Positions 101-42,610 of a stretch of 64,000 bases of DNA are shown one piece after another (the first letter of the stretch is position 1; each line of letters starts with the position of its first letter). This DNA is from Amphirosellinia nigrospora (taxonomy: Eukaryota > Ascomycota > Sordariomycetes > Xylariales > Xylariaceae): NCBI GenBank assembly GCA_004123355.1, contig SCHM01000001.1:10984193-11048192 (forward strand), in the 5' to 3' direction. The notes under the pieces are model-generated. The model was not told where the DNA came from. It worked only from the letters and a program-made list of their open reading frames with translations, and searched no databases. The translations under genes and the position numbers were made by a program.

Positions 101-1685
101 ATGTTCAAGCAGGTCAGAATCGATGACGGGCCGATTGGCAAAAGGGACAGTGAGTATTTTCGGCACCATTTTCTCATTTCGGTAACTTCTAAAGTACAAT
201 GTTCTGTTTTGGGGCCAAGACACTGTTGGAAGCTTCTGAAGCCCTCATAGTTCGCGCCCGAGATGACGACAACTGACTCTGGGTGTTCTAGTGATCAAAA
301 TCGCTTTACAATTCTCCACTCACGAGGAGTCCTTGAAAAGACTTTCTGATATCAACCAGAAACTGGATTTGATGATGACTGGCAACCTACGAAACGAACC
401 TTACCGGAAAGTTCGTTCGCAGGAGAAACTATTTAACGTGTTGCAGGCAGTATCTAGAAGTATCTATAACGCTTTGAAATCCAGCCTATCTTGTACCTGC
501 GCTCAATCGCATGGCATAAATTTCGGCCTGCCAACCCCAAGAGTCACAGGACGAGAGCAAGATGAAGAGGCACTAGTTAAGCGACTGAATTTCCACCTCG
601 TCTTTGCGAACAAGCCACAAGATACCAAAGGGAAAGTGCATAGTAGCTGGGTATGGGATGAGCTTGTTCTTCGATTAGTGGAAATCCCTATTATGAAAGT
701 GTGTACCACAGCCGTGGTCCCTGCGGCTACTCATGCGGTGGCAAAGAAATCCAGGTTTGCCCGTGTGAAGTTTCTGGGCGATGATACAACTACGCTCGTT
801 GTACGAACTCCATCGCCACTACATAGGGGCGAATCAACGACTAGTCAAATTTTTGATGCATCCCATCAAAGCATCACCGATCATGCCGGGCGCATTTCTC
901 CGCTCCCACGAGAGACTCAGCAACTTGTACAAGTGAAAGACATTTGTCGCACATTAGGCAGCAAGAGACTAGATGTCACACGCCAGGACTCTTTCGGATA
1001 TCTCATTGACGAGACGACTCAGAAGCGACGGAGGTTTGACGTATTTCCTCTTAGATCTTCGGATGATAACGATGAGTGCACCACAATCCACCTCGAGGAC
1101 GCTTTCTCCCAAAAATATCGACCCTCGCTCGCTCGAAAATACCACATTGCCGCCACTGCGGCTTCCAGTGTTTTATTCATGCATAACACGCTATGGATGC
1201 CCGCCACGCTCACTACAAAAGATGTTTGCCTGGTTTCACGGCACGGGAAAGTGGATTTTGACGAAATTTACCTGACAAAAAAATCGTTTGACTTGGAGAG
1301 CCCGACGACAGCAAAAGACTATGATCCCTCAAGCGAAGCAGCGGGAGTATCAACATTATACTACCTAGGGATATTCTTAATGGAGATTCTGCTGTGGAAA
1401 CCAGTGTATGAGTTTTGGGACGATGAAGGTGTTGGCTTGAGCAGTGTTCCGCTGGAAGACTTATTTGACTATACAACTGCAAAAGGCTTTGCTCGGATTG
1501 AAAAGATACTAAAACGAATCGAGTGGATTAGCTCCTCTGACTTTAAGGAGGTCGTGGAACACTGTATCAAATGCGACCTTAGAGCCAGCAGCTTCTCGTT
1601 GGATGACGATAGCTTCCGTCAGGCCGTTTACAGCGACGTGTGTTACCACTGCAAGATGCCGACCGACTTGTGGGTGGAAAGATGA
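101..1685 (+). CDS. DUF7580 domain protein, 5' end uncertain
   Basis: Two exons: 101-149 and 292-1685, joined in phase 1 across an intron at 150-291. The joined codon is ATG and the reading frame then stays open for about 465 residues. Recognisable DUF7580 landmarks are a Cys-rich patch (SCTCAQSHG), a W-x-W-D-E motif (SSWVWDELVL), the helix ARKYHIAATAASSVLFMHNT, a helical stretch LYYLGIFLMEILLWKP, and the C-terminal block DLRASSFSLDDDSFRQAVYSDV that closes this family. Family members are usually 550-600 aa with an N-terminal helical region; that part is not seen here. Exon 1 may therefore be an internal exon with the true start left of the window. The domain is common in fungal proteins of the type linked to heterokaryon incompatibility and prion-like signalling, but its function is unknown. 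The coding exon shows no frameshift. Confidence 0.75.
150..291 (+). repeat. Introner-like element copy 1 (intron of DUF7580 gene)
   Basis: Complete 142-nt phase-1 intron. Donor side reads GTGAGTATTTTCGG. The interior holds GGGCCAAGACA, then GCTTCTGAA and CTCATA, in the same order as copy 2. The 3' end is ACTGACTCTGGGTGTTCTAG (272-291), with branch point CTGAC and acceptor TAG inside the conserved block. Compare copies at 30107-30254, 34097-34207 and 42106-42237. Confidence 0.8.
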
Positions 1686-2705
1686 CTGCGGGAGAGGTAA
1701 ATTCACGGGGGAGGCTTTATAATTAATCGACAATTCAGGGTCCGCTGCCTATGTGCGATATATACTAATTATGGACGTGTAGAACGCTGCTCCCGAGATA
1801 GATGTATGTATATATGCACTATGAGTCGACGCGTATTACCGACAGGATCAAATCAGACGCTTGCCAAACATACCCAAATCACATCTGGCGCGCACCTTAC
1901 TGTTTGGTCGCAACTTGAAGTCGGCATAGGTGTGATAGAACTCCGTGATGACGACCTGAGGCGGTTGCGAAGATATTTGCCGACGCGAGTCAGTGTGGAA
2001 TCACGATGCCGAGGAGGTATCTATGTAGGATTAGGTACCAACGTGTAATCAGAGACGATGAAAAAGATTCTCAGCCTTGCTGCATCCGAGCATACGACGA
2101 GCTATCGGGAACTATTCAGATTCCATGCGTGAGACTACATTCATCAGCTGGGTGCTGACGTTTCGTGGCCGTTTGTAACATTCATGGTGATCGACCTCGG
2201 CATCTCGCATACTAAGGCTATCGTCTCACTTATATTTATAACTAGCACACCCTAAACTCTCACAGCCAATCTACCTAGACTAGTACGTATTGGTGATTCG
2301 ATCAAGCGGGGGTGAGTCACGGCCGCGGTGGCGGGACTTCCGTGCTACCTCTCTTAGGTAACCTACCTACAGTAGGTACTGAACTTCAACTTGAGATTTC
2401 TCAGGCAACCGCGATTGAACCAACGGACAATCACAGAATCTGTGATTCTAATTGGTGTCCCAGGCTCCTGGGCCTGCGCTTGATTTTGGCAAACGATGCT
2501 TTCCTTATCCATTCAGGCAAGTTTACGTGGGGAAGCCACCCAATTGTATTTTGTCTCAAGGGTAGCGGCAGGTCGTTTACAAAAACTCAATCTCAGCCCC
2601 CGATCTGCTCATCTGTCGTTTTCGACCTTCACTTCTCGTCTTTCCCTTTACCAGCGCGGCCGCGGTTGCGTAATCAAAGCTACGCACTTGCTTAAATCTT
2701 TGATC
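1686..2705. other. Intergenic, no gene seen
   Basis: About 1 kb between the DUF7580 stop and the start of the DUF2828 gene. Open frames here resemble nothing known. A TAGGTAACCTACCTACAGTA-type word cluster lies near 2355-2380, and a pyrimidine-rich stretch just before 2706 is probably promoter or leader of the next gene. Confidence 0.5.
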
Positions 2706-5120
2706 ATGGCGACCACTACTGAGCGCAGGAGCCCTGGTATCTTAGAACTAGCGTTCCCGTTCTGTTTCCTGCTCATGATGGCTTTGACCTTTCCATACCG
2801 CAACCTGCGTTTGATGCTCTTGTTCGAGATATTGTCCGCCACGGACACACTGCCCAGCAAGATGCTATGGGAAGGCCGAAGGATAACGTGAGGGATGAGG
2901 ACGATGATATCACCCTCGTCAGTACTCCCACACAAGGAATGCCTGGAGCTTTGGCTCAACTAGACCTGGACACAACGGCTGAGAATCCAGCCGATGAAAC
3001 TACCACTGTCGAGCCCGACAAAGCCGGCGAGAGTCGACATCCCTTTATCCAGGGTCTGTTGTCCCACAACAAACCGACGCCCGTGCCACAGGCAGAGCTA
3101 GAAAACAAAATGCTTACGGAAAACGCCGACGTCGCCTACCGCTCTACCACATCACCTCTCGTTGATCTGTTCACTGAGCTAGAGGATGTCGTATCGGGCC
3201 CTCGGCTGCTCGAGCTTCTTAACGCCGCCTGGGCAGAAGATTCTCTTGCCACACTCAAGATCATTTTCAACGCACGCTCCATACATCTTGGCAAATCGTC
3301 CCGAACTACGTTTTATCGCTGCGCTGGCTGGCTCGCGCAGCACCATCCTTTGACACTAATTGCTAACCTCCGCTGGTTGAGTCGCCCTGTCATCCAGAAG
3401 AAAGTTGAGAAGAGAGATGAGACAGACTCTGACATGGTGATATTGGACGTGCAGCCCGAGAAAGATGCCGACGACGTGACCCGATTTGATGTCAGACACG
3501 GCGTGTCTCATGGTTATTGGAAGGACCTCTTGAACATACTCGCTCTGAGCGTGAATAGGCATCTTCATGTTCTTGCTCACCCAAAAGATATTCTGAATGT
3601 CGAAAGACAGCAGAAAAATTCCCATGTTCCGACTCAGGAAGAAGCTAAGGTCAAGCGTCACGACACACGAGATAGGCGAAACAATGGAGCTACCGCACTC
3701 TTCAACTCTGATTCGATTTACCAAGGACTCCACCTGACCGTCGCTCGTTTATTTGCCGAGCAGCTAAAGACAGACTTGGCTCTTCTGAAAAGTGAAGACC
3801 AAAAGGCGAAGAACGACATTTCGCTCTGTGCCAAGTGGGCGCCCTCCCACGATCGGTTCCACGACAGGCATACTTTCGTTGTCTCGAGCATCGCCGAGAT
3901 GCTCTATCCTATGGCAGAAGTCACTAATGGTCAAGAATCCATGGATAGAGAGCTCTATCTCCGCCACGCCCGAGAGCGTTACCGTAGAGACGTTTCGGCA
4001 CTGCGTGCCAGTCTCGATATCGTGGAGCGAAAGCTCGCGGCCAAGGCCTACGACAAGATTCAATACGACCGCGTCCCGTCTATGGCCATGAACCTCTATT
4101 CCAAGACCTTCGCCGAGAAGGACACGAAGCGTTTTGAGAAATATCTTGACGGCGTAGCCTTGGGCGAGGCGCGCATCAGTGGTGCTACGCTAATGCCATC
4201 CACACTGATCAGCCAAGCGCGAGGCAGCCACTCTGCCTTCAGCGCAAATCAAGACATGTGGCTAGAGCTAAGATGAAAGCGATTGCTGCTAAGGTCGCTG
4301 ACGGGCAGTGGAAGACACTTGTGCAGCGGATCAAAGACTCGGGCACCCTCGAGTCCAGCATCGCGGTATGCGATGTCTCTGGCTCCATGTGCTATCCCGT
4401 CTTTCAAGATGGCACAACCCCATGGACAGCGCCATAGGACTATCGCTTCTGCTGGCCGAGGTCACGGCGCCTCCTTTTGGCGGTCACTTTATCACCTTTT
4501 CTGAAACCCCCACGGTGGAGAGCGTCGATCTGTCCACGTCGTTGCGAAACAAGGTAGCCAAACTGTCCAAGGCTGATTGGGACATGAATACCAACTTCGT
4601 AGCCGTCTTCGATGACCTCATCCTCCCGATGGCAATCCGTAACAAGTTGTCCCAAGCGGACATGGTCAAGCGCGTTTTTATCTTCTCCGACATGCAATTT
4701 GACCAGGCCCAGACTGGGGATGATAACCAATTCAGCTCCTCTTTCGAGCGCATCAAGAGACAATATGAAGCCGCGGGCTACGAGATGCCTGAACTCGTAT
4801 TCTGGAACCTCGCTGGTGGGCGCGCCGGCTACAACCTAGGAACGAACGGCGACCCCACGGCTCCCAAGCCCGTCACGGCCGAAGAGACCGGTACCACCAT
4901 CGTCAGTGGCTATTCACAGGCCATGCTCAAGGTATTCCTCGATAACGGAGCGTTTGACGACCCTGACAACGAGGATGAGGAAAACTAACGACGACGGAGG
5001 AAGGTGACGCTATCGTTGTGGATTCCGAGGCTCCAGCCAAGAAGCGGAAAAAACCCATTGACCACGGTCAAGAAAGCCATCGGCCATAAGGCTTATGACC
5101 CCCTTATTGTTGTAGATTAG
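2706..5120 (+). CDS. DUF2828 vWA-like protein, frame interrupted
   Basis: Recognisable as a full-length DUF2828 protein of about 800 aa. N-terminal part: MATTT..., then PWYLRTSVPVLFPAHDG, then a long open frame to about 4276 containing GLLSHNKPTPVPQAELE. C-terminal vWA-like half: VADGQWKTLVQRI, then DVSGSM, a DxSxS metal-binding (MIDAS) motif, then GGHFITFSE and KRVFIFSDMQFD. The tail IGHKAYDPLIVVD ends at the stop at 5118-5120. The frame changes near 2720, near 4245-4275, at 4418-4421 (CCCC), at 4981-4984 (AAAA) and at 5048-5053 (A6). Every break is repaired by adding one base (two at the A6 run), mostly to a homopolymer. The conserved sequence continues through each break, so sequencing deletions are likelier than gene decay, although a young pseudogene is not excluded. 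The biochemical role of the family is unknown. Confidence 0.8.
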
Positions 5121-22379: not shown

Positions 22380-25300
22380 AAATAAACAATGACAACTACT
22401 TAACATGAAGTCTGAGGACCTCCGACAAGCCGCGAGCTCTGGCAGGCTCATTCTATTTCAATCATTAATAAGTCTTTAATCGTTCTCTCTAGCAGGCTGC
22501 ATTTACAAGATATAGCGTTGTTGACAAGTGAAAAGTGACATAAGTGCGGTTTAAGATGGCGCTCAGTTCTTCGTCAGGCCTAGCCATAAAACCTCTTCAT
22601 TTACGCCTAGTATTAGTAGTCCTAATAAAATTTCACATCTAGCACCTGCGATGCTGAGAAAAGGGCCAGCTCAATTACAGACTGACTATCCATTATACCT
22701 ACAGTGTATAGATGCTATTCCAATTACGGTGTTTCTTCACAAAATGCCACCTCCACTTGTCTCGGCTACGGGAGTAGGATAGAGGCAGCGGCAATGCCGG
22801 GCTAGTAGCATCCGTGATGAACACACCAGCCGAATCTCGGTTCTCAAGCCTGTTATTCCTGCGGGTAATGGACTTATACGGATCGGACGACGGACCGCGC
22901 CGTCTGTACGCAAGCCCCACCCTTGGTTCAGCACCTGCGGGCAGCTTGCAGCAAGTCATTATAGCAGTCCTATGCCCAATCAGGTACGCCACCTACCTCC
23001 TGCCAAAAGAGTTTTGCATACAGTTTCTCCATGGTAAATCAGACGCAATACTACCTAGGTATTCAAGATGGGCTGCCAAGGCGATCATTGCATCTGTAGA
23101 TAGTTATGTAGTAGCGCCAGTTGAGTCCCTGCAATGTTCCTGCGTTGGTGTTCTGCCACCATTTTTTAGCGTCCCATGCTGATGGATACGATCGCCCATC
23201 ACATCAACACCCACCTAAAGGGCGGGCGAAGACAGGTTGGACTTAAAAATAGGAGCGCCAGTCAGGTATATATATATATATATATATATTCCACTTTGCT
23301 AGCCCCGCCGCTGGTGGTGAACTTTGAACGATTACTAGAATGGTCACATATTTTGCCCCCAAGAATATAAATGACGACAAAAATCGGGACGATGGGAAGA
23401 AGAATTGCTACATTGGCTGATGGAAGGTAGGAATCTGAGATGATTCGGTATAAGCCTATGACCTGATTTGAAGAAGCTATGTTATATACAATATGTGACT
23501 AATTTTTTTGTTGCATTTGATGTGAGGGATGCCAAGCCGATTAAGTGGGACCCAGACCAAGAAATACGCCCAAGCAAAGCCAGGAGGTAGCTGATGGCTG
23601 TTGGGCTTTGATGGTGCGAAGGGCTTTATTGCGTGATCCCACGTGTTCCCACACAAACCGACCCAGGGACGAGCTAAGATACCCAGGTATACCTGAGCCC
23701 CGTGCTCAAATATTCGCCCAGATGGGGCTCCCTTGCTGTAACTTTCCACACTGTCGTACAGTACAGTTCGACAATGGGAAAGATTGCTACCTAGGTATTG
23801 CGTCTCAGAGAACCTAGCCAGATACTTGTAGAAGCAGGACATATTATTGTAGCGCGAGGCCGCCAGGAAAAGTAGGTATCGTAAGGTTGGTCTCGGGAAC
23901 AATGAACAGTCTATTGGGAACCAAGATGCTTCTTTGCCTAAGCTTGCGTATCCACCATACCGATATAAACCTTAAAGCTCGAGGATAAAGATGAATTATT
24001 CATGTTAGTGTGACAGGATATATTTACAGATGTTTGTCTAGGTACTTAACCTATCCCCTCCCTACGAACATGGTTGATGTTAGTTTCACTCATGATAAAT
24101 AACTACTTACCTTACCTACCCAGGTACCTACTTAGTACTAAACAGAGAGGCTCGCAGTATCGAAGCTGGCTTACGTGTGTCTGCCTGGCCTTGCTGCCTC
24201 TACTTACAGGACAGCTAATGTCCTGTAAATAGATGCGAATGTCCCAAATCCATATGGTGTACCAGCTGTATCGAGCGTGGAAGTTGAGGTTAAGCCCATC
24301 GGGATAGACAACCATAATCCTACCTCCTGCAGTGCGGTAACTCGTGGTTACCGGTAGGTCTAGGTAGATATCGTGTTGTAAGATGCAGTATAGAATAACT
24401 TGAAGTTGAACTGGTTAATTCATACAGACATAGTCAGGTTGGATGTAGAAGATGTAGAAGGAACCTACCTATCTAACTCACCTGACGCGCCATGAAAGTT
24501 TCCTGCTATCTAGATTCGTGCCACGGAATGCCCGCAGACCCCTCCGCGCAAGCCCAACCACTGATTGTTCTCTATAAAACACGGCTGACCGCCATCATCT
24601 CTCTCCGTCCACGCTCTCTAACTAATTGATCGCAAGAATCATTTGATCTCTCGTCCAGCTAGTTTTTGGACGTTGCCGCTGCCAATACAACGAACTACCA
24701 CTAGTAGCCACCACCCCAGCCTGTCTGTCCCTCCACATTGGAACTTAGCCCCGGCCACATTCGGGCTCGGTTACTATTGTTGTCGATACGCCTAACTGGC
24801 TGACTACCTACTGTACCCGACCGGGACGCTGGCAGCCTTGTATAGCGCATCCCCTCCCTGCCCACCAGCCCGTGCTTCTCCCCTACGTGCTATAGGCAAC
24901 CTCGCTATCTTGGGACTTCTTTCTCTGCACCCACAACCAGCAACGCGCACGAAACGAACCACCAGGACCCCTCGAATGTTCCGTGGCCCAGACAGGTACT
25001 GCAACAGCAGTGTTCCCTTGCTCCGGCACAGCTGCGCATAGCGAGAAAATAAACAAGCAAACAAGCAACCTGACCACTCTGTCAGTTAACTGAAGAACTA
25101 GGCGGTCCAAACACAGTCGATCGTGACTCGGATTCAGCTGCTGCCGGAAGTTTCCAACTGGTGCATACAAGGGCTCTCCGCCTTCCATCTCCCCATCTCC
25201 AATCATCGGATTGCGCATTCTCACACTTTGACAGCCCAGCCCCCACCCAGCTACGCTAGCACCCCCTGCTGGCGTTCTGGCACTGGCACTGGAACTGGCA

Positions 25301-26053
25301 CCGCAGGGGCCACTGGCATCACCCTCTCTCGCACTGTATAGCGTACCGTACGCCCGGCACTGGGCGAGCCACTGAGAGCCACTGACACTTCTTGAAGCCA
25401 TCCCATCCAAACCATCTACCTACCTAGCCATTCTGGCCATCCTCGCCTTCGCCGCCGCTGCAAAATCAATCACTCACCCACCACCATCACTTCTCCTTCA
25501 CCCATCTGTTTTTCGCCCTTCTCCGGACTGTTTGCTGTTACCGCTTCTACGGTCGCATTTATACCATCCTTTATTTCTGATTTTCCCCGTCCTGTTTGTA
25601 TCACCACGTTTCGTAGCCACTGGACACAAGAAACACGGGTCCCCTGCGTTCTTTTCCTTCCTTGTCGCCGTCACCTCCTTTGCACTCTTCTACAAAGGAG
25701 TCCTTCGTCCATCAACCTTCTCACGACCCTCGGATAAGGCACTTGCATCGAAGGCTCCGGGACTACGCGACCGTTGACGCGCTGCCAATTCCACTTGGCA
25801 CGCATCCTGGGCCGCTTCCTCTCCGACGATCCCGACCGGGCTCTCTTGCTCTGCGGACGAGAGCATCCCGAGAACCTCGCACGTCGCGCTGTCGCGTACT
25901 GCTCAAAAGACGCCCCACATCCCGTCGGCAGTCCGATACCACCACCTTACCGTGTCATTTAGGAAACAAACCGGATGCGAAGTACCGATTCGGCATCCTT
26001 CCCTCGATTGATTCTCTTGGATCCTGGCAGATTCGCTCTGTCGACCTCGAATC
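22380..26053. other. Intergenic and long pyrimidine-rich som1 leader
   Basis: A 3.7-kb region with no recognised gene. 22380-24550 is ordinary intergenic DNA with a TA microsatellite near 23267. From about 24560 to 26050 the plus strand becomes strongly C/T-rich with many short open frames, consistent with the promoter and a long 5' leader of the downstream LisH regulator. Confidence 0.45.
23266..23289. repeat. (TA)n microsatellite
   Basis: About 12 uninterrupted TA units in non-coding DNA. Confidence 0.85.
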
Positions 26054-28618
26054 ATGAACAATATCAATATGGCCAACATGCCTATGGCCGGCGGGCCCGT
26101 CGGCGGCGGACCCATGGCCATGATGGGAAATAATACTCTTGGCGCTGGCCAAGTCCAACGTCTCCAGAAAATAATCGTGCAAATCTCAATACGTACATAT
26201 ACGATTACTTTCTTCGGGAAGGCATGTACGATTGCGCGCGCGCAATGCTCAATAGCGACCAAGCCCTCAACGTCCACAAGAACCCTCGTCGCGATGAGAA
26301 TGGCAATGCTATCGGAAATGGCGTTGGCGATGATCCGATGGACACTGACAGCAAGGATGAGATAGATTCAAAACGACCACAAGATCTCCCACCCCCAAAT
26401 GTACCCAACGGGTCTGACAGCTGTTTTCTTTATGAGTGGTTTTGTCTCTTTTGGGAGATATTATCAGCCCAGCGCAACAAGGGCGGCGTCAGTCCTAACG
26501 TCAGCAACTATGTGGTTCACACACAGGTAATCCCGCCTTGACTTGTCCTGGGATATGTCTTGATAGCCTTTACATCTAACATCTCTCTAGCAACAGAACC
26601 GGGTGCGACAAAATCAGCAACAGGAACTGATGCGTCAAATGAGGCCGGACATGTATAATTCCATGATGCAGCGCATGCCGAATGGCCTCCCGATGAACGC
26701 GAAACATCCAAGTCTAGCCAGGACCGCCATAGCAAATAACCAGAATATGTATGTTCACTGTGCTAGTTGAAACTCGTGTGCCGTACAAACTAACAGTGGT
26801 TGTGCCAGCCCACAGCAGATGCAGATGCTCCAAGCCGCCAAGCAGAACCAGATGCAGCGCGACGGTTCCAACATGGATGGTAATCAGCCTCGCCCAGCCT
26901 CGCCTGGTTCCGCCGATAATGCACCCTCACCCAAACGGGCCCGACTAGAAGGACAGGGTCCCTTCAACGGCCAACACCCAGGCATGATGAATGGGCAACG
27001 ACCTCAGCAAGGAATGCCGGGACAGCAAGTAGGCGATACCAAAGCTGCTGAAATGGCTCAGCAAATGCTCTTGACAAACGGCATCTCTCCCGCTAATCTG
27101 ACTCCTCAGCAGTTCCGAGACTTTCAGGCACAGTCTACCCAGAACCAGGCCAAGTCAATCCAGGCCTACTCGCAGAATCTGCAGCAACACCATGGTCAGC
27201 AAATGCCCAATAAACAGGTTCCCACTCCGGGCGGTCCTCAAGGTCAAGGCTCACCTATGATAGCACAAGGTCCTGATAACACGACGGCTATTGGCGCATT
27301 CTATCCCGAGATGGGTGCGGCAGGCTTGCGACCAGGGCCCGGCCCGGCCCAAGGTAGTGGTAGCAATCATGCTCTTCAAGATTATCAAATGCAGCTGATG
27401 CTTCTTGAGCAACAAAATAAAAAGAGGCTCATGATGGCTAGGCAGGAACAAGACACCATAGGCGGCATACCCCGTGATGGCGCCGGGCCTAATGGGCCGG
27501 GTGGGCCACCTGGTCCGAACGGCCAGCCCTTTCAAGACACCCCACCGCAGGGAGGGAGACCCGGCGCGTCCCCTAATCCGAACGACCAGATGAAGCGCGG
27601 GACTCCTCAATTGGGCCCCACCGGCATCCCTTCACCCCTCCAGGAAGGGGCACAGTCAAGGGGCTCCCCCAATGCAATGAATTTCATGCAAAATGGCTTG
27701 GATCCCAACATGCCGCAGACCTTTTTTAAGGGCATGGCTGGAATGGATGGCAACATGGTTGCACAGATGAACATGCGCCCACCCAGCTCACACCCGGGTC
27801 AGCCGTACAACGGTCAAATGAATCCCCAGATGATGGCAAGGCAGCAAGGGGCCCTCAGCAAGTTCAGTGGCAGGGTCCCAATGGCAATGGCATGGGGCCT
27901 CAGGGGCCTCAAGGACCCCAAGGACCGGTTCAGGGTACACCGTCACAGAGAGCAATGCCGCCACCGTCAGCTCCAGCCCCCACTGCTAATGGCAATGGCC
28001 GGACAAGCACTCAATCGCCCCAAACTACAGCTGCTGCGCCGCCTACACCACAACAGGCTCCTAAGGCCGCACCCAAGAAGAAAGATGCAAAGAATTCGAA
28101 GAACAAGGTACTATCTCATCAGATATGACTCATTAGGAAGATTACTAACCTGTTTTCTAGGCCGCAGCCCAAAAAAATAAGGCGCCAGCCGCCGGTGCTA
28201 CTCCTGTTCCTGAGCCGAATCAAGATCCGGAACCCCCACACCCGCCACACCCATCACTCCTAGCAATCCAGGCAATTTCAAATCCGGTCAGAACGCTGGG
28301 GCCGTACCACCAGCTGTATCAGCACCGCAGGCTGCTTCTGCGCCAGTCCCAGCTCCCCAGGTCGACCAAATGAACTTTGCCGACATGAACAACGGCAATG
28401 GCGCCATCGTAAGTCAACCACGCGTATGCGAAACAGCTTTGACTAACCATGAACAGTTCACAAGTATCCCGGAGTTCGGTGAGATGTCGAACGGAGATGT
28501 TCTACCGGATTTCGACTTTGACTCCTTCCTACACGACGGTGATAACGACGGCACGGGATTCGATTTCAACCCGGCTAGTTTCGGAATGGAGGCTCCAGGA
28601 GAGATTGGGGCCGAGTAG
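26054..28618 (+). CDS. som1: LisH-domain transcriptional regulator, Som1/SomA/Flo8 type
   Basis: Exons 26054-26526, 26591-26748, 26809-28107, 28161-28408 and 28457-28618, all with GT-AG introns. The N-terminus MNNINMANMPMAGGPVGGGP is followed by a LisH motif: NLNTYIYDYFLREGMYDCAR, then AMLNSDQALNV. Next comes the adjacent conserved block SCFLYEWFCLFWEILSAQR. A long Gln/Met/Pro-rich low-complexity region follows, with a basic PKRAR stretch (possible nuclear signal), ending in the acidic tail DFDFDSFLHDGDNDGTGFDF. Som1/SomA/Flo8 proteins act downstream of cAMP-PKA in adhesion, conidiation and virulence in other fungi. Three frame breaks lie at homopolymers (AAAA 26168-26171, GGGG 27848-27851, CCCCC 28233-28237). 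Adding one base at each restores the conserved reading, about 750 aa. Confidence 0.85.
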
Positions 28619-29737: not shown

Positions 29738-31943
29738 CTACGTCTCCAGATCTGGATGAATCTCATCGGCGTCTATTCGTTTGCTGTTTGCGGGTGGTAA
29801 ACGGGCTACGAACAGCACCAAGAAGCCGAAGGCAGCAACGCCCTGTCTCTGCGTCAGCCAAATTCCCAACACGAACGTCTCAAAGAGCCCATCGTAGCCA
29901 TATATCCTCGGTGGGAACGGGCTTTCCGATGGTCATTTATGGGTGGGTTATCCTTACTCCATTGCAAAAGAACGTGAGACTGGGTTTTCCCATCTCTGAA
30001 AAGGTGGCGAAGATGAGGCCAAATAGGCCTTGCGTCACTAGCATTGCTGTACTCTCGACGAGAGTGATGGCGCTGATGGCGTCGGGCCGCTGGCGCGGCG
30101 GACACACTAGAACACTTGGAGTCAGTTATCGCCATTTTGAGTACGGATTATGAGCGTTTCAGAAGCATCTCGATGCTGTCTTGGCCCTAAGAGGAAAGCC
30201 AGTTGCTGTGAAAGCTGCTAGAACAAGGGAAAAGAACTCCGAAAAATTACTCACTCTCAGTCATGACACCTTTGGCCGCGGGCGCCGATCCGGAGGCGAA
30301 CGGTAGTAAAAATCCAGCGAGGTATACCTGCCACCCGGCCGAAGAGAACCCAGCAAAAAACGTCACGAGCGAATCAATAACCAAGCTCCACCGCACGAAC
30401 AGTAGGTCAAAACCGGTACCCGAATCCTCTTCGTCGGGTTCCGGGGCCTGCACTGGCTCCTGTGGTACTTCTCCGCCCTCGGCGGCGGCGAAGTCTTCGG
30501 GTGCGTTGGCACCACGCCGTCATCATTATGGTGACATTCCGTTCCCTCGTCCCGTTGGGCGTTTCCGTTGAACCAAATTCGCCCCTCCGTGATAATCTTA
30601 GGAAATACGAAGAGCAAGAACAACCCACGAATAGACGACATACCGAACATGAGGTAACCGTTTTCCGTGGTGTTAAAGTTGAACTCGGAGGTGGCATACA
30701 TCTGGAGGAGCAGAGGGGCGTACCCCGACGCAAATACGCCAAGGAAAATGCCGAGGGCTAGAAATATCAAGCCATAGTTTTTAATAACTTTCCCAGACTC
30801 CAATCGATATTGGTGAGGGACAATAACCTTGAGGGGCGCAAAGAAGCCATTGAGTCCGCGACCAGACTGTTTCGGATTACCCGAATCTGTGGCTGTGGCT
30901 GTCTTGTTAGGTAGGAAGATGGCGCCGTATATGGTAGAGACAACATAAAGAAAGAATGCGACCTCGAACGGGCGTCGGATGCCGTAGATGTCGCCGAGCA
31001 CGCCGCCAACTTCACACATTATTAGACGAGTTATAAGACTCATTCGGTAATAGGACGGGACAGCCATGACTTACGGAGATACCCGAACGCCGTGCCAAGC
31101 ATGATAGCGCCCTGTAGCCGACCGAAGACAGCGGTGCGGTCTTTAGGAGCCACGGCTTCGCCGACAGCTGTGTTCAACACCAACCTATCATCCCAAAGTT
31201 AGTCATTGAGGCCTTCCTCCCTCCTATCTCTGCTCAGTTCGTGAAAGGGCAGGACAACTCAGCGAGCACTCACTGGTAGCCACGCGGGCCCCCTATAATA
31301 CCAATCCCCTGGCAAATCTGGAAAACGAGCTCGCCCGTACGCCCGCCGATGGTGACGCCGATGATCTGCGATGACACCCTCAACCCCAGGAGCGATGTCT
31401 GCGAGACGAAAGACCAACGAGGACCCCACAGCTTGATGAAGTAGCCGCAGACGAAGAGGTTGAAGACGCCGCTGAGCGACGTCGACATGCCCAGCACCGA
31501 GAACTGCAACGCGGTGCCGGCGTCGATCTCGCGGCGGTGGCATCGCTCGTCCGGCGGACCCGAAAAAGGAGGATTGTGTGTGTAGAAGATATCACATTCC
31601 ATGAGGCGGAATACGTAGACGATCCTTTTTGTAATCGGGCAGTGAGTACGTTTATAAGTCAAGGGCGTTTGTTTCTCTATTTTATTTCTTCTCTGGATGA
31701 TCGAGGTGGCAACAAAAACTTACGGGCTTGGGTTATGCCGAGAGTAAATGACATGAGAAACCCGGCGAGCAAAATCCGGTTCGCGACGCCGAAGAGGGTT
31801 TGCGGCACGGCGACGGCGACGGCAGCGGCTTTGGGTTGCCCGGTAGATGAATTAGTGGCCTGTCCATTGCCGTTATCGTTGCCGTTGGCATCGGCATTGG
31901 CAAGCAGGGGTGTTCTCTCATCCGCAGCCAATCGCGCATCCAA
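29738..31943 (-). CDS. MFS transporter 1 (ERTPLL N-terminus)
   Basis: Start 31943: MDARLAADERTPLLANADAN. The acidic dileucine-type N-terminus is common in fungal MFS carriers of the PCFT/HCP-like group. Exon 2 carries YVFRLMECDIFYTHNP and the MFS-like GVFNLFVCGYFIKLWGPRWS. Later exons encode LVLNTAVGEAVAPKDRTAVF and GYLGGVLGDIYGIRRPFEV, a charged central loop, then RWSLVIDSLVTFFAGFSSAG and PFASGSAPAAKGVMTE. After the intron at 30254-30107 comes RPDAISAITLVESTAMLVTQ and the last membrane span AAFGFLVLFVARLPP, ending IDADEIHPDLET. Frame breaks lie in the GCCC run before the first donor and in GGTG near 30515. About 12 membrane spans are expected. The substrate is unknown. First of three neighbouring minus-strand genes. 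Confidence 0.75.
30107..30254 (-). repeat. Introner-like element copy 2 (intron of MFS transporter 1)
   Basis: Complete 148-nt phase-1 intron (GAG A|TG TGT). Donor side GTGAGTAATTTTTCGG. The interior has GGGCCAAGACA, GCTTCTGAA and CTCATA as in copy 1, then AAAATGGCGATA and the conserved end ACTGACTCCAAGTGTTCTAG. Splicing it out joins AKGVMTEM to CPPRQRPDAIS, as expected for the transporter. Confidence 0.85.
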
Positions 31944-32533: not shown

Positions 32534-34624
32534 TTATATTCTTTCATCCGCTTCCCTCGACTCGGGAGGAGCATGAGCTTGCCCGACATCGACCTGCGGC
32601 TCATCTTTCTCACCGATACCATCTTTCCTGATATTCCATCCCCCCTTCCAACCTACCCAACCGTTCTCTCTGGGGCCTCTCGCCAATCCGAAAAGAATAG
32701 CTGCACCAATGAAACCAATGCTCATTGATGAACTCCAGACCCAGCCTCCCTGAGCATATAGCCGGTTTCCTGCTGCTGTGCCCGTCAGTTGCCCAGCAAA
32801 GCAGAACACCATGTAAACTGTGTTGACTCGGTTTCGTGCTTTTGGATCGAGACTATATATGTTGCTTCTATTCGCAGTGTGTGCAAAATTCGAACCGGTG
32901 TCTTAGGAACATGAAGTTGAGCAGTTAGCCTCTTTTTTTTGACCCTAATGAGTTTTCGGATGCGGAACGAGGCCATAATCGGGTTTTACGACCTTCCCCT
33001 AAAATGAAGCAATAGATGAGCAATAGGAAATTTCACTAACCCATAAAGATTGCCTGAATTATCGGACCTGCAACAGTAAAGGTGCTAATGAAGGTTCCGA
33101 TGACGATACCGACTAATTCGAACGAAAGACCGAGAATGCTCGAGAATAAGAAGACGAATCTATCGGTGATAAGTCGTGACCATACCGGAGCCAAAGAAAT
33201 GACGGCAATGCCAATGAACGCGAAAAATCCAATTTCTAACGAGGGGTAATTATAGGGCGGCGATGCAAGCAAAAATGTCAGTGTCGTCCAGAAGTTTGTG
33301 AACGCGGCGCTTAGTAAAAATCCCATCAGGCAAGCTTGTACCAGCAATGGCTCCTCTACGATGAGCGTCGCCATCTTCCCTAGAGCTTTAAAGTAGTTTA
33401 AGCCTTTATTCTTTGCCGGGTAATCGGGAAGCGTGAAGAAAACTGAGAAATTATAAGTCAGCAATGCGCTACCCAGCATGACGTGTTATAGCAAGTTAAC
33501 GGCACGCAAAACACTGATCGTGTGAAATGAGGTTTGGGGGGTTCTATGCTACCATCTTTCTCCTCAATCAAATAGTAATTCGAGTGATCTAAACCCAAAT
33601 AATACTTACGAATAATAAACGTCAAGTACTGAGCACCGAGTGCTACCCAATAGATGTTTCTCCATGAAGTGAAGTTCGCCACAACGCCAGATAGAACTCT
33701 AGCAACTAGCAAGCCCAGGGCTAGACCCGAAACAACTATCGAAAGAGAAGAAGCACGTTTATTAGCCGGCGCAAGATCTCCCACTAGTGGGAGCATAAGC
33801 TGTGGTGTGACGGTTCTAGTTGACACATCAGCACTACATACCTAAGTAACTAAGATTACTGCCGTAGCGGAGAAATACATACCCTACACCACACAGGAAC
33901 GAAAGACTGACGAAGGCCTGAAAATTAGTCGTTAGGCATAAGCCAATCCACTTCCTGCTGTCAGATTATTTGATTTCTTGATATTCCCACTTATTCTGTG
34001 CAACACTCACCATTGTTGCGGTGACTAGAATCAGGAAGAGGATGAAAGGTCGCCGAGGAATTATATCGCCTAGTGGGCACAGGAACAGTAACCCAGCTAC
34101 AACACTCGGAGTCAGTTGTTTCCATGTCAAGCGGAACCTGTCAATAATTCAGAGCCGAAAAAGGCCTTATACCAGCAACGTTGTCCAAGAAAGAGAAAAT
34201 TACTGACCAGCATACCCTGCTTGTGACAAGGTTGCCACATTTGACGAATCCTCGTAGCTGACGCCGAAGTCGGCCGCAATAACATTCAGGATAGGTTGTG
34301 CGTAGTACAGATTCGCGACTGTGAATGTAGTGCTCTTGTGAAGGGATTAGTACGAGGCCTTGGTATTAAACTGTATTCACCGAAGATTTGGAGCCATACA
34401 AGAGCGAGCAGAATATTCATGGACAGCGTAAACTTTGGTGGGTGATGAGGATCATAACGGCACCATGGCGGCATCCAGTTCAAAGCTCGTAAGAACCTCG
34501 CCTTCTTCGATGAAACGAACGGAGTCTCGTCCGGGTCGTGAGTCTCGATGGTGGTGGGTTGATCCATATCGATTTCACGGTCGGATGATGCCGCGATACC
34601 CAAATCGCTTGACGTGTGCCGCAT
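32534..34624 (-). CDS. MFS transporter 2
   Basis: Start 34624: MRHTSSDLGIAASSDREI, then a cytosolic lead-in PPWCRYDPHHPPKFTLSMNI and the first span. Subsequent exons give TTFTVANLYYAQPILNVIAA, EDSSNVATLSQAGYA-AGLLFLCPLGD (joined across the intron at 34207-34097) and IPRRPFILFLILVTATM. Next come VTPQLMLPLVGDLAPANKRA, ARVLSGVVANFTSWRNIYWV, TLPDYPAKNKGLNYFK and RLITDRFVFLFSSILGLSFE, and finally DPKARNRVNTVYMVFCFAG and GNRLYAQGGWVWSSS. This pattern is a 12-span MFS_1 carrier seen across Pezizomycotina, related to drug/H+ antiporter-like proteins; the substrate is unknown. At least five introns. One G appears to be missing at the first donor (CGGTGAAT). Confidence 0.75.
34097..34207 (-). repeat. 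Introner-like element copy 3 (intron of MFS transporter 2)
   Basis: Complete 111-nt phase-1 intron (GCT G|CT GGG). Donor side GTCAGTAATTTTCTC, with an uncommon GTCAGT donor. The 3' end is ACTGACTCCGAGTGTTGTAG preceded by ACATGGAAACA. The middle is shorter and more diverged than in the other copies. Splicing joins SQAGYA to AGLLFLCPLGD. Confidence 0.75.
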
Positions 34625-35294: not shown

Positions 35295-37449
<2,155 letters not shown>

Positions 37450-40077
37450 GACTTCAGAGAGAATAGAAATTTCCAATGCCGCAGGCGCAGACTTAACAGG
37501 CACTGGAAATCAGACAGCACGAGTCACCTTCGTTTGTGTGGCACGTAGAGCAGCATGGCTCTCACATCTCTTATATATATGCGGAGGCTCGCGAAGAGCC
37601 CCTCACGATCCCACGCCGTTATTCGACTCTCACGCTAAGCTTTGTGATTCTACGATGAAGGTGCATACGAGCGGGATCGGGCGGCGGCATTAGGTCACCG
37701 GACTTTGTGAGGTTTGTTTCCGACTGGACCGAGAGGCGGCACTTGCATCTGTAGGTAACGCTACGTGCATGAGGAACCACTCACCAGCATTGTTTATGAC
37801 GACACGCAGTTCTTCTCCCGGCCTGCAGGAGACTGTTCACGAGAGCCGAGAGCTTTATACGATGGCTGATGCAGTAGCGATTTTCAATGGGTATGGTTAG
37901 TCATTTTGAATCTCGGCCGTACGGAGGATTGAATACGTCGGTTTGGTCGTGTATTTCGGTCGAATACGCCTCCCCCGCAGTTGTCTATTCTCCTTTAAGC
38001 AAGACGATTTTTGTTTGCATCCTGCATGTCCCCTCATCCTGGACCGAAGCTGTTCATCAACACGGATTCTATACGTGACGTGGAGTGTTGCCTACTGCAT
38101 CTAGTACCTTTCCCCCTGATGAGAATTCTGAATTTGGATGTGGATGAGAATGCAACTCGTTGAGGGGCCGCGTGTTCCGGTTTTACCAGAGTTCGGTATT
38201 AAGGGGAAATGACTGCTTTCCGCTTTCTCGGGGTGCGTCAAATATCCGATTGATTCTATTTTACAGTTAATAACTCTGATATTGTGTCATTTAAAAGCAC
38301 ACGAAAAAGCGTCGCCAAGCACAAAGAAGCAGACAAAGCCTCTTTGAGGTGAGAAAAACATATATACGCGCTTTGGCGAACAAATTCCTCTCATGTTTCT
38401 TCATCTGTAATTAATTAAAGTAACGGTATAAGTCATCAACATTCCATCGCGAGACCCCATAACATTACATCATGAACACCAAACCAACTTCTAAGACTCA
38501 AACGGAGCGGGGCTGGAACCCAGGAACGGATGGTGGAAGAATCGACTGGGCGGATTGCACGGTTATGTAAACTCACGATTTACGCCTTCAATAGGCAGTT
38601 CAATCTGCTAGCCCATCTCGAGCGATTTACAACGTCATCTCAACTCATACTGCGGCCGTAGACAAGTAGACTCGGGCTTAAATTATATAACCACCTGCCA
38701 TTTCCAGCCAAATCGATAAGAACTCAAAGCTTCAACTTGTCTATGAGCCGTAGTAATTTAGTCAAGTGGATTTGAATTTGTAACAATTATACAATCTCAG
38801 AAATGAAAGTGTTACTATAGCAAACATAATCAAATTCACAGTGAGCGAAAATAAATTGGGAGCCAACATCTTTCCTGCCCCTAAACTAAAAGAGTGGGAT
38901 GCATAGTGCAGCACTACCCCATACAGAACCCTAGACCTAGCCACGTCTAGCGACGCCCCTAGATATCGTATGGCGCTCACTCTCGTATAAATACTATCTC
39001 AGCAATCATCCGTAACTTACTATCTTATAACTCCTTTAACATCTCCAAAACCGCTAAGCTGGCGCCCGAGCAGTTTAGAGGCTTCGAAATGGATACGTAC
39101 CGAGGGACATGTTTGTATTCGCGGACGGTACTCTCATGCCTATTATCCTGGTCAAAATGATCGGGGATGTCAAGCTACGTAGATAAATCTATACCTGACT
39201 ATTGTACGACATTGAATCTTGACTCCGTCCACTAAATGCTGTGGAACAGTTAATTTAAGAAGTTCTAACCGGGCTTAATTTAGGCCTTGATAAAATCACT
39301 CTGGGAGCATAACATAATTTAGGTCTGAATTAACTAATCATAAGAAAAACTATTTATATTGAATGGAAATAAAATACGGGTACCAGGCTCATTCCAGAGG
39401 GTGAAGTCTTCAGCCGGTGAAGAAAAATTGCTAAATTACGTAGGTAACTAATTTAAGGAGTGTGAGAAGAATACCCCAACGGGCTAAGTACTAGTCTACC
39501 GAACTACGAGAGTCAGTAGGGCAGCTTTGTCTATTCCTTATGATAGTACTCCAACATGCCGAGGTTCATTCATCCATCTTTCAATGTATTGATCAAGCGT
39601 CTCCAATTGTCTGTTTTGCAAAATATATGCCTCTCAGGATAGTTACAGCTTTTTCTCATATTCATGTCTCCGCCATTCTAGTTACTAGCAGAATATCATT
39701 GTCAGGCAAATTGATTGAAACAGAGCTAACAAGATACCCCGCACGCTACGCAATGTGGGCAGCTTCCCCAGGTTCTGGAACAGGCAAGCTGAAGCTGATG
39801 AGCGGGAGAGGATGGAAGTGGAGTTGGCGTCGGATGCAGTAGGCAGGATTCCCGAGCAGAGTAGCACAGAGCAGAGCCTGTCATCAGCTAAATCGCTGTT
39901 GCAACTCCTTTTTATTTCAGCTCTCTGTTGTCACCCGGAATCCTCACGTTGCCCAACACCAGACCCCTGTTGTGAGGTCTGTCAAGGAGCGTAGAAGCCC
40001 GCAAATCGTCGCAAAGCGTCGTTTGGAAATGTGTTACAATTATATCTCCCCATTCCAGAGCGAAATTAGCTACGCCA
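37450..40077. other. Intergenic, AT-rich, no gene seen
   Basis: A 2.6-kb region shared as upstream DNA by the esterase (-) and the bHLH gene (+). 38250-39500 is AT-rich with stops in all frames; nothing recognisable. Confidence 0.45.
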
Positions 40078-40987
40078 ATGTCATCAAGCGGCCACGATGA
40101 CGATTCCCCTGAGAGGTCCGCACCGAACCCGATCGGCGTCGGTACCGCCGCCAACAGTCGACGCGTCAAGAAGAAACGCGTTCGAAACTTTACTGAGGGT
40201 GATCGAGCAGCCCATCGTATATTTGAAAAGTCCAGACGAGAGGCTTTCAAAGAAGCTTTAACTGTAAGTATCTCCCTTTTCAATCTCGGACTTCTGTCTG
40301 TTGACGAGAGAGCCCAAAAGAATCTTGCGAGTCTTCTGCCTACCCTTGCCGACACGGAACCGCAGCGGCTGTCGAAACACATCGTGGTGGACGAGGGTAT
40401 CACTGTGACAGGTCGCAGCATGAGCAGACAAGGCCATGACCGAACGTCTTGAAGCTGTAGAGATGGAACGAAACGAACTATTGGCCGAGCTTAATCAATG
40501 GAGAAGTGGCGCAGGGATAGAACTGCGACAAGCAAACACTATAGTTCATCATGGCGACACCAGTGCAGCTCCCGAGGCCATGTTGGCAGCAGTGCCGGCC
40601 AACTTGCAATCTACGGAGCCTCCCATGAACATCGTTGGCGAAGCAGCTCCGCCCTTCATCACGAATCCCCTTCACGAGCTGAATCCACCCCGGTAACAGC
40701 TAATCCAAATGGGGGTGCATTGGGAAAGCTTTGATCCGCAAATACACGCCTTCGCGAATCATGTACATGAGGAAAATGCACCTAACAACATAGGAAATGC
40801 GGAGCCACCACAACTAGGCACATACCAGACCCCTCGGTCACCCAATACATCGCAATTTAACATGGAGCGAGGACAACATGAGGTTGTCTTTCTGCCCTTT
40901 GAGTCGCCCCAGTCATTTAACCCAGGATTCCAAGCCGACGCTTTTATGCAGAATGGGGTGCCCCTGCAAGACTATATACCTCCATAA
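40078..40987 (+). CDS. bHLH transcription factor-like protein
   Basis: Exon 1 40078-40263 (MSSSGHDDDSPERSAPNPIG...), 57-nt intron 40264-40320, then the rest. The joined bHLH reads GDRAAHRIFEKSRREAFKEA, LTNLASLLPTLADTEPQRLS, KHIVVDEGI. The basic region has H-x-EK-RR spacing, then helix 1, a loop, and the helix-2 Lys-x-Ile-Val. It is followed by a leucine-rich coiled-coil (MTERLEAVEMERNELLAELN) and a Pro/Asn-rich C-terminus with FDPQIHAFANHVHEENAP, ending PLQDYIPP. The frame changes near 40430, near 40692 and near 40720, each fixable by single-base changes. Probably a nuclear DNA-binding regulator of about 270 aa. Its target genes are unknown; the transaldolase-like gene lies convergent to it. 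Confidence 0.7.
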
Positions 40988-41152
40988 GAGGGTTCGAGGA
41001 CGGAATGTCCGAGCCCCCGCTCGGTAAACAATTTCAGGAGTGCCTATTCGACCGTAGGTTAAGATGGGAGACGCTAGTATATTGTGCTCCTAGGGGGGAG
41101 TTAAGTCAACGACTCAAATGGAGTGCAGAAAGAATAAATGGCATTTTTACTC

Positions 41153-42610
41153 TTAGGCGGCCTGGGCTATTGCCTCTTCGCATTTCTTCCTGCTGCTCGT
41201 CTCGCCGTTTTCGTCGTCACCAATGAAGATTTTCAGGGCCTCCGCAAGCCTGTTGGCAGCAATGGGGTCTCTTTCGATTGCTTTCTCAAGTTCTGCACCT
41301 TGGTTGGCAAGATAGTCAATATCCGTGCTGGCCAACTTGCCATCCCAGTTCGTCGTCAAAGGGTCGGTCTTCGACAGCTCGACGAGGCGAGCCGGCGTTG
41401 GCCCCGGGTTCTTGTAGACATGCTCTGGCTTGGGGACACCCGCGCCTGGCTGTTCTGGTTCGTTGTATTTCAACTTGGCGAGCTGGTCCAGGACGGTGTA
41501 TGGAATAGTCGCAGAGTGGCAACCGAATTCTCCCGCTGCCATGGCTTCCTTCGCGCTGAGGAAACTATAAAGCAAGTCAGCCAGTGCATTGTCTGCGCGC
41601 TATTACCCCTACTTACCTAGCCAATTTCACGAGCGGCTGCTCTTTACCGGTCTCTTTTAGAGGCGCTTATACGTTTCGATGATTTGCATCATCCGGGGAC
41701 TATTAGGATGCTCTTTAGCGGGATCTTTAACATCTGGCCAGAGCGTGAGATCGCTGTGAGCGCGATTTTCTATTCACCTTGTCAGCCTGCGGGATTTTAC
41801 TACCAGTTTACTCGAGGCAGGTGACATACCATTTAAATATGGGCTAATGAAATAGCAGCCGGCCTGGCTACACGCGATGGCTTGGGGAAGGCCAAACACC
41901 GCGGTCCCCAGTGTCGAGATACCCTCTTCAGAGAGGATCTTGGCGGCATTGAGTGCTGGTCCTGTAGCTGGAATTTTGATGCAGTAACGATCTCGGCCTA
42001 TACCCACACGCCCAAACTCCTTGTCGTACAGGCGCGCATGATCAACCGTCGCCTGTGTGTCATATGCCTTTGACGGAAGAGTCTGTAGCAATACGCGGCC
42101 ACTAACTGCAACACTCGGAGTCAGTTATCGCCATTTGGAGCCGAGTTGTGAGGGTTTCAGGAGCTTTTAGACACTTCTTAGTCCTAAAAGGGAAACTTCG
42201 TGCTCTAAAAATCGCAACGGGGTTGAGAGTTGCTCACTGTAGTCGATGTTCTTCTTGCACATCAAGACAGCCTATGAATGTCAACTTGAAGAGCTCTGAA
42301 CTTCATCAGCGGAAAGACCGACCATTCTTGTGTAGACCGCCAACCACCCTCGGCTTTGAGCTCCTTGGCAGTCTGCTGGAGAAGTTCCGCGTTGCTTGCG
42401 CGGTGCAGTTCGATATTCACCAAGAGCTGGTTGCTTGTCTGGTCATGAGGTTTGATGGGCATGTTCTTGACATATTCGGGTTCCATCCAATCCACATCAA
42501 CGTCCACTGCATAGACTAGTGTCAATAATAGAAATGTCTCTCTATCTTCAGAGTCACATACGCTGCTCCTCCAGCTTCTCCAACCATGTTGGTCCTTCTG
42601 GGGATGCCAT
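41153..42610 (-). CDS. Transaldolase-like protein
   Basis: Start 42610: MASPEGPTWLEKLEEQ, then an intron, then LDVDVDWMEPEYVKNMPIKP, NQLLVNIELHRASNAELLQQ and LMCKKNIDY. After the intron at 42237-42106 the frame continues ISGRVLLQTLPSKAYDTQAT, RYCIKIPATGPALNAAKILS, GISTLGTAVFGLPQAIACSQ and AGCYFISPYLN. The KIPAT motif holds the Schiff-base Lys of transaldolases, and G-CYFISPYLN matches the last barrel strands. Later exons give HSDLTLWPDVKD, MMQIIETYKRL, SFLSAKEAMAAGEFGCHSAT and an acidic/Lys-rich C-terminal helix (to 41153). This is the fungal transaldolase/fructose-6-phosphate aldolase-like family, distinct from canonical pentose-phosphate transaldolase. Frame breaks lie near 42330, 42270 and 41660. 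Confidence 0.75.
42106..42237 (-). repeat. Introner-like element copy 4 (intron of transaldolase-like gene)
   Basis: Complete 132-nt phase-1 intron (TAC A|TT AGT). Donor side GTGAGCAACTCTCAA. The interior TTTTAGGACTAAGAAG, then GCTCCTGAAACCCTCACAA aligns with copy 2. The 3' end is CAAATGGCGATA followed by ACTGACTCCGAGTGTTGCAG. Confidence 0.85.

Follow-up and report, generated by a model that had tools for sequence, protein, structure and literature searches.

We propose that a single spliceosomal intron of the U2 type, ~147 nt long, has given rise to several hundred copies spread over unrelated genes of this genome, a reading to which we give a probability of about 0.9. The four introns in the 64-kb window, by which we mean the whole stretch of DNA analysed, almost certainly belong to an introner-like family of this kind (Table 1), as the first-pass annotation had claimed. 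All four were found where that annotation placed them, with a GT start and an AG end; as it also noted, the final 20 nt of each match ACTGACTCYRRGTGTTNYAG, 15 of whose positions are invariant, GGGCCAAGACA is common to copies 1 and 2, and a GCTYCTGAA motif is present in three of them (copies 1, 2, and 4). That they are copies of one element is borne out by a leave-out profile: trained on 34 copies from elsewhere in the genome, it found copy 1 at E 7.3e-24, copy 2 at E 5.2e-27, copy 3 at E 1.5e-9, and copy 4 at E 1e-26, against E 1.7 for the next match in the window and E 2 for the best match in the reversed window. Copy 3 is the most diverged of the four, and only model positions 57–147 align. 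An Rfam scan of the 64-kb window gave no match.

Table 1. Introner copies in the window and their conserved 3' ends.
Feature	Position	Strand	Description
Introner copy 1	150..291	+	142 nt, phase 1; flanks ACA|..|TGA; 5' part of gene with weak DUF7580 match
Introner copy 2	30107..30254	-	148 nt, phase 1; flanks AGA|..|TGT; gene called MFS in the first-pass annotation
Introner copy 3	34097..34207	-	111 nt, phase 1; diverged 5' part; flanks CTG|..|CTG; within MFS_1 domain
Introner copy 4	42106..42237	-	132 nt, phase 1; flanks ACA|..|TTA; within transaldolase-like domain
Conserved 3' end, copy 1	272..291	+	branch-point-like ACTGAC, 3' arm of near-terminal stem, acceptor
Conserved 3' end, copy 2	30107..30126	-	20-nt pattern
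Conserved 3' end, copy 3	34097..34116	-	20-nt pattern
Conserved 3' end, copy 4	42106..42125	-	20-nt pattern

Read through unspliced, all four window copies meet a stop inside the intron. The frame of copy 1 opens once the copy is excised; that of copy 2 is open for just 5 nt into the intron when unspliced, and excision leaves 265 nt open upstream and 167 nt downstream. With copy 3 spliced out at 34207/34097, an MFS_1 domain becomes continuous across its junction (E 6.3e-9), and a TAL_FSA (transaldolase) domain is restored across that of copy 4 (E 2e-22). The MFS name for the host of copy 2 is unconfirmed because the exons tested gave no Pfam match, and the DUF7580 match, upstream of which copy 1 sits, is sub-threshold (E 1.6e-5; 25.2 bits against a Pfam cut-off of 27).

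The 48.1-Mb genome was searched by 3'-end patterns and by a DNA query, with the reversed sequence as control. Exact matches to the 20-nt 3' end number 62 (1 in the reversed control), and allowing at most 2 mismatches raises the count to 399 (68 in the control); judged from these sequence matches, the family may comprise roughly 330 copies. With nhmmer, 119 matches (some at overlapping loci) were obtained in 278 kb, and 0 in the reversed sequence. Scans of a viral contig set and a genome contig set with the 3'-end pattern gave 0 and 0 matches. The copies are unevenly placed: the 62 exact matches include 15 pairs less than 50 kb apart, compared with 4.1 expected under random placement, and of the additional copies lying no more than 1.7 kb from an exact-pattern copy, 22 share its strand and 1 is on the opposite one. 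The rate of four copies in 64 kb, from which the first-pass annotation argued for many per genome, does not extrapolate: 4 of the 62 exact matches fall in this window, which lies in a local cluster. The training alignment consisted of 37 near-full-length copies hand-picked from the 62. Full copies made up 70 of 98 merged matches and 46 of 62 new ones, with 115 having enough flank, and all counts of flanks, frames, and divergence cover only copies that reach both model ends. Median divergence from the consensus among these 115 is 19%.

Similarity between copies begins at the donor and ends at the acceptor. When the 62 copies selected by pattern (which included the AG end) are simply aligned, 53 start with GT where similarity begins; among profile matches, GT is found in 76/76 of those reaching position 1 and AG in 87/87 of those reaching position 147. 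The consensus begins GTGAGTAA, ends GTTGTAG, and folds into a stem of 13 pairs (columns 6–20 with 130–144, around CTCGGAG/CTCCGAG) that runs from donor nucleotide 6 to directly before the acceptor. The strength of this terminal stem was equalled in 14 of 5000 shuffles; since the 13 pairs derive from the consensus fold, pair percentages lean to that structure. The stable secondary structure predicted for the first introner-like elements, according to a passage citing it in PMC8469720, was not seen in single copies: the first 60 of the 115 are no more stably folded than mononucleotide shuffles (mean z -0.03). Nor did the stem show covariation (1223 pairs, shuffles giving 1223.1), and RNAalifold on 37 copies gave three pairs only, near the 3' end, none changed on both sides. 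The near-terminal stem is a feature of the consensus and is not kept up by single copies; because these are not extra-stable and the stem lacks covariation, it is no proof of a role in mobility. A correlation of stem integrity with youth (rho -0.47) was discarded as evidence, since every consensus column decays with age.

Exact splicing of the copies is suggested by the continuity of reading frames and domains. After excision, 108 of the 115 copies leave a 108-nt frame open across the site in sense and 75 do so in antisense, compared with 52% of random excisions; likewise, at least 60 nt are open on both sides after excision in 59/70 full copies, compared with 35/70 in antisense and 47% of random excisions, antisense and random controls alike taking the best of three frames. 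The other 11 of the 70 may lie in UTRs or beside other introns. With the acceptor exact, the median downstream opening is 194 nt, against 49.5 nt when it is moved by 1–2 nt, and 64/70 copies meet a stop if unspliced; in both measures the frame was fitted to the exact splice and so leans to it. Of 20 spliced products tested, 12 have a Pfam domain spanning the junction (5/10 and 7/10). A mannose-6-phosphate isomerase host product aligned with 1pmi without a gap at the junction; a less telling comparison of an aminoadipate-reductase-like product with solved structures placed one of its two introner junctions inside a weak aligned stretch and the second at the margin of such a stretch. Phase one is commonest (33/65 copies). 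A dicodon coding score was dropped because its training set was too small (19 ORFs), and codon usage, put in its place, was also weak.

Paralogues suggest that the copies were gained at sites where related genes have none. A paralogue was counted as intronless if its match runs at least 10 residues past the site on each side with no stop. By this count, the only other match of a ThDP gene is intronless (1/1), as are 16/18 for an ABC gene, 4/4 for an SDR gene, and 11/43 for an MFS gene; most of the remaining 32 MFS matches do not reach the site, and three that do are interrupted by stops. Read at the DNA level, the paralogue of the ThDP gene and two of those of the MFS gene are gapless at the junction.

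The insertion sites share a preference for YA|TG: among 115 copies, T stands at +1 in 87, A at -1 in 65, G at +2 in 65, and Y at -2 in 90. This near-palindromic preference holds in each of the larger donor subtypes (GTGCG, GTGAG, and GTAAG). A|T occurs at 55/115 sites, compared with 2/22 in a heuristic set of ordinary introns, which is small and impure (a strict filter gave 0, a looser one 22, with 4 in the reversed sequence). A|T is found in 22/38 copies on short branches, 19/38 on intermediate ones, and 14/39 on long ones, and the insertion-site score is not significantly related to branch length (rho -0.10, p 0.27). In 70 copies, we found no excess of flank repeats, either flush or in registers -6 to +6, that would indicate target-site duplication (TSD), a comparison that could miss TSDs in a small minority. 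The third base of the element shows no link with the 3' flank.

We suggest a plausible mechanism for the multiplication. Each full copy carries its own donor at its first nucleotide, a branch-point-like ACTGAC, and a YAG acceptor in its last three nucleotides; with both splice signals within the copy, the spliceosome could therefore excise it exactly and the host frame would be kept. Copies were gained in sense orientation in coding sequence, preferably at YA|TG and without TSD. For the copying itself, the excised intron RNA could be returned to transcribed genes by reverse splicing, or captured at a double-strand break, and then converted to DNA; in the ancestral element, the near-terminal stem may have held the two ends together. 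We infer that an RNA route of this kind is somewhat favoured, although near-palindromic YA|TG is not predicted by reverse splicing and counts against it. In a tentative variant, DNA would be cut flush through both strands at a preferred YA|TG site, and the intron would then be captured in sense in transcribed genes. If true, this route would differ both from transposition with TSDs, as in algal introners, and from plain reverse splicing, and a similar short site preference might sit unnoticed in other ascomycete introners.

Two further explanations can be set aside as refuted, the second for the copies examined. Ordinary introns could look alike through their splice signals only, and the strongest block, ACTGAC..YAG, is indeed branch point plus acceptor; however, hundreds of copies are conserved across the full ~147 nt, full-length BLAST matches reach E 1.8e-44, and the reversed controls are near empty or much lower. 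Neither of two outcomes that the first-pass annotation had named as refuting its reading, a lack of further copies and matches at the splice consensus only, was seen. Spread through duplication of host genes or segments would agree with the clustering of copies within genes and regions, and 2 of 15 same-locus pairs lie above the 90th percentile of similarity; yet the other 13 lie below that percentile of all pairs. The host Pfam domains are also diverse and the exon flanks patternless beyond 2 nt, which, with the intronless paralogues, supports the earlier interpretation.

A non-autonomous DNA transposon with splice-site ends, moved by a flush cutter at YA|TG or in a Helitron-like manner, is in our view unlikely. 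The near-palindromic preference across the three donor subtypes speaks for it, and the lack of TSD would be expected of a flush cut with no stagger; nevertheless, that lack also weighs against transposition, as do the unclear terminal inverted repeats (TIRs; best 30-nt end symmetry 0.53, with 500 shuffles reaching 0.57) and the apparent position of nearly all copies in sense coding sequence, since a DNA transposon would be expected to have access to much of the genome outside exons. Helitrons insert between A and T without TSD, and their ends are 5' TC and 3' CTRR. The copies here end GT..AG instead, and a Helitron_like_N search of the genome gave no match, a result that is uninformative because it matched no control genome either. 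Passages of PMC9860276 do indicate that introner families outside ascomycetes mostly look DNA-based. Still less probable is an origin of the family from sister stwintrons of Xylariales through internal deletion, as in the published type-2 cropped sister introns, which would make it a branch of that known lineage. In its favour are the rDNA of the genome, which we take to look like Xylariales and thus probably the same order, and a stem geometry similar to the published near-terminal repeats. As described in parts of PMC9024468 and PMC12403724, sister stwintrons are likewise multiplied intervening sequences, seamless and without TSD, with near-terminal inverted repeats of which the 3' copy lies between the branch point and the acceptor; those repeats are 10 nt long, from donor nucleotide 5 to 2 nt before the acceptor (PMC12403724). 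The sequences differ, however (5'-GUAUAAAAAC there, CTCGGAG/CTCCGAG here), and the published stwintron sites are described as unbiased, in contrast to those here. Read by eye, our consensus has one donor and one branch motif, with no internal acceptor followed by a split-donor remainder, so the internal intron splitting an external donor that defines a stwintron is absent: these are single canonical introns, hundreds in one genome. Phase one also leads in the 2022 stwintron paper (~45%), whereas no phase bias is reported in that of 2021.

We therefore return to multiplication of a spliceosomal intron and regard the family as an introner of ascomycete type, multiplying introns being already known from other fungi and algae. 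It has the traits of fungal introners: full-width similarity in unrelated genes, repeat ends that are the splice sites, and seamless insertion without TSD. Compared with the introner-like elements of Dothideomycetes, the copies lie in a host which, from its rDNA, we take to belong to a different fungal group, and which carries them with no individual stability beyond shuffles. In Fulvia fulva and Dothistroma septosporum, such elements are many similar canonical introns in unrelated genes and, according to passages of PMC4457414, resemble ours in occurring sometimes several per gene, in being longer than ordinary introns, and in degenerating over time. Ascomycete introners in a survey of 3,325 genomes (PMC9860276) are, in the sections drawn on here, similarly gene-biased and free of TSDs and TIRs, and its Alternaria alternata example likewise shows direct insertion. 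The algal MITE-type introners treated in the same sections are also introns made in numbers by a mobile element, but they have TSDs and/or TIRs, and a splice site can come from the TSD; here both splice sites lie inside the element, and neither TSDs nor TIRs at the very ends were found in the copies.

The origin of new introns has long been an open question, in which fungal introners stand out for their copying mechanism. This family, with its several hundred graded-age copies, its exact ends, measurable site preference, near-terminal stem, internally deleted derivatives, and intronless paralogues, offers concrete predictions that separate RNA-based from DNA-based models, and it shows how new introns can spread through unrelated genes.

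The four introns that the first-pass annotation had described in the window hold up in their coordinates, strands and features. All four begin with GT, end with AG and lie in phase 1; in each, reading through without splicing runs into a stop, while excision gives an open frame over the junction. Their assignment to one family is borne out by our profile from 34 other genome copies, which recovers them with E values of 5e-27 to 1.5e-9, the next-best window match having an E value of 1.7. The host names proposed for them stood only in part. MFS_1 and transaldolase domains bridge the junctions of copies 3 and 4 after splicing in silico, whereas the MFS name given to the host of copy 2 found no Pfam match in the exons, and the DUF7580 match of copy 1 lies downstream and below threshold. 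As a separate feature of the window, its strongest GC skew (-0.149) and highest GC (0.538) coincide at 24001-28000 (4-kb steps).

Copies of the intron family in the window and their host context
Copy	Position	Strand	Host context
1	150-291	+	precedes a sub-threshold DUF7580 match
2	30107-30254	-	no Pfam match in exons
3	34097-34207	-	MFS_1 domain over the spliced junction
4	42106-42237	-	transaldolase domain over the spliced junction

The expectation of many copies per genome was borne out in the 48.1-Mb assembly (11 contigs), where the search found hundreds. The conserved last 20 nt of the element (3' pattern) match exactly at 62 places, and the reversed control at 1; tolerating as many as two mismatches raises these counts to 399 and 68, a difference from which about 330 copies would have a well-conserved 3' end. 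For a 17-nt 5' pattern, at the same tolerance, the counts were 99 and, for its control, 5. Among 19 copies fetched through this 5' pattern, 12 have a 3' end within two mismatches, a low fraction because copies with exact 3' ends, fetched earlier, are absent from the 19. Well-preserved copies therefore probably total between about 330 and 500, an estimate that leaves out older copies. BLAST with the consensus gave at least 40 matches (40 scored out of 234 first-look candidates), with E down to 1.8e-44, and a 37-copy profile gave 119 matches in 278 kb (some loci overlapping) against 0 in reversed sequence. The family is dense around the window, with 9 of the 62 exact matches within about 0.6 Mb (contig C1:10817860-11396775). 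Elsewhere in the assembly, contig C10 carries at least three 5.8S rRNA genes (104-257, 43832-43985 and 58339-58492; 39 scored of 1190 first-look candidates), spaced about 43.7 and 14.5 kb apart; the rDNA unit, if real, is long for a fungus. An rDNA spacer from the assembly resembles those of Xylariales.

The family consensus is 147 nt long: GTGAGTAATTCTCGGAGCCATTTTCTTCCTGTTTTGGCAACTTTCAGAGCACGAGGTTTCCTTTTTGGGACAAGATAGTGTCTAGAAGCTTCTGAAACCCTCACAATTCACGCTCTAAATAGCAATAACTGACTCCGAGTGTTGTAG. Its similarity is limited on the 5' side by the donor, and beyond the acceptor nothing past two bases is common to the copies. In a plain alignment, GT stands at the column where similarity starts in 53 of 62 pattern-selected copies; all 76 profile matches reaching the first position start with GT and all 87 reaching the last end with AG, although AG belonged to the pattern that had selected 62 of the profile-matched copies. 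The 3' block contains ACTGAC, which, from general knowledge of fungal introns, we take to be a branch-point-like motif. Copies diverge from the consensus by a median of 19%, the closest pairs being 95% alike, and their tree is star-like, with no fork reaching 95% support, which would fit repeated spread from a few sources. Some copies are internally shortened with both ends kept: in five short loci (L016, L017, L034, L041 and L059) the middle is lost or diverged, the match gap in all of these except L016 running from about model position 43-58 to 90-101. L016, L034 and L059 form one group in the tree (SH-aLRT 88), suggesting that the short form may also have multiplied.

The consensus ends could form 13 pairs (columns 6-20 with 130-144), and shuffling the two terminal pieces gave equally good pairing in 14 of 5000 trials. 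Across copies, the mean pairing energy is -9.71 kcal/mol against -7.68 for shuffled ends (better in 72 of 115), yet swapping ends between copies leaves pairing unchanged (-9.75 kcal/mol), and we found no covariation in the stem (1223 pairs observed, 1223.1 expected). On these two results, the best reading of the stem is as a feature that the ancestral element had and that would no longer be maintained in resident copies.

After excision, 59 of 70 full copies have open stretches of at least 60 nt to either side in sense, against 35 of 70 in antisense and 47% of random excisions; a 108-nt frame is open in 108 of 115 full copies in sense, 75 of 115 in antisense and 52% of random excisions. By codon usage, sense scores better in 91 of 115 copies (79%), close to the 82% reached by segments from the long ORFs used to train the score. 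Given this sense-frame excess and codon usage, nearly all copies appear to sit in sense within coding sequence. A Pfam domain bridges the junction in 12 of 20 spliced products tested, two of the 12 being from the window, and the copy in a mannose-6-phosphate isomerase gene aligns to 1pmi with no gap at the junction. Copies cluster within genes: the 62 exact matches include 4 pairs within 3 kb (0.27 expected), and of 23 additional copies lying no more than 1.7 kb from one of the exact matches, 22 share its strand. One locus (L035 208-3819; C4:9168184-9171795) has seven matches on one strand over 3.6 kb, two pairs being only 22-23 nt apart. In another (L052 1383-1666; C6:1413814-1414097), two copies lie head to tail with acceptor and next donor 1 nt apart, which would give a 1-nt exon or need ordered splicing.

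Same-genome matches that extend 10 or more residues past the site in both directions, free of stops, were counted as intronless paralogues: 1 of 1 other match for a ThDP enzyme, 16 of 18 for an ABC transporter, 4 of 4 for an SDR and 11 of 43 for MFS, where most remaining matches end short of the site and three others carry stops although they reach it. At the DNA level, alignments of the ThDP paralogue and of two MFS paralogues show no gap at the intron site; the other counts are based on coordinates and stop counts. Since the compared genes are paralogues and not orthologues, intron loss in the paralogue is formally possible.

The insertion sites are biased toward YA|TG, the bar marking the intron. 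In 115 copies, Y occurs at -2 in 90, A at -1 in 65, T at +1 in 87 and G at +2 in 65, with nothing clear further out. The bias is present separately in the first 70 copies and in 46 newly fetched ones, and in each donor subtype (GTGCG, 47; GTGAG, 30; GTAAG, 28). A|T flanks 55 of 115 family copies against 2 of 22 ordinary introns, a heuristic set with some false positives. A paralogue (L131) could be compared at the L015 junction and a homologue at the L017 junction, both in genes where ATG is the split codon, and both comparators have valine opposite the methionine; insertion may perhaps alter the nucleotide preceding the intron. We saw no target-site duplication among 70 copies, although one confined to a small minority of them could have escaped detection. 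Taken together, the sequence evidence supports an intron-like repeat with exact ends that occupies coding positions in sense, is missing from paralogues and has biased sites with no target-site duplication found. We infer that the copies are spliced and that the family is mobile, copying presumably proceeding through RNA. Alternatively, the family may copy through DNA, with YA|TG cut flush; this site is near-palindromic, and with two positions per side we estimate the chance of such agreement at about 1 in 16.

Multiplying introns are an established phenomenon, described for introner-like elements in Dothideomycetes (PMC4457414), for 548 introner families in 175 genomes, the ascomycete ones without target-site duplications and TIRs (PMC9860276), and for sister stwintrons with near-terminal repeats in Hypoxylaceae and Xylariaceae (PMC8469720, PMC9024468, PMC12403724). 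In the sections consulted from these five papers we saw no YA|TG-like preference reported for fungal introners. The sites of the Xylariales sister stwintrons are there reported to be without bias, whereas those of the A. nigrospora family are biased, and the YA|TG preference is at odds with that report. As far as can be told from the published descriptions consulted, the family is a previously unreported case of an established type of multiplying intron.
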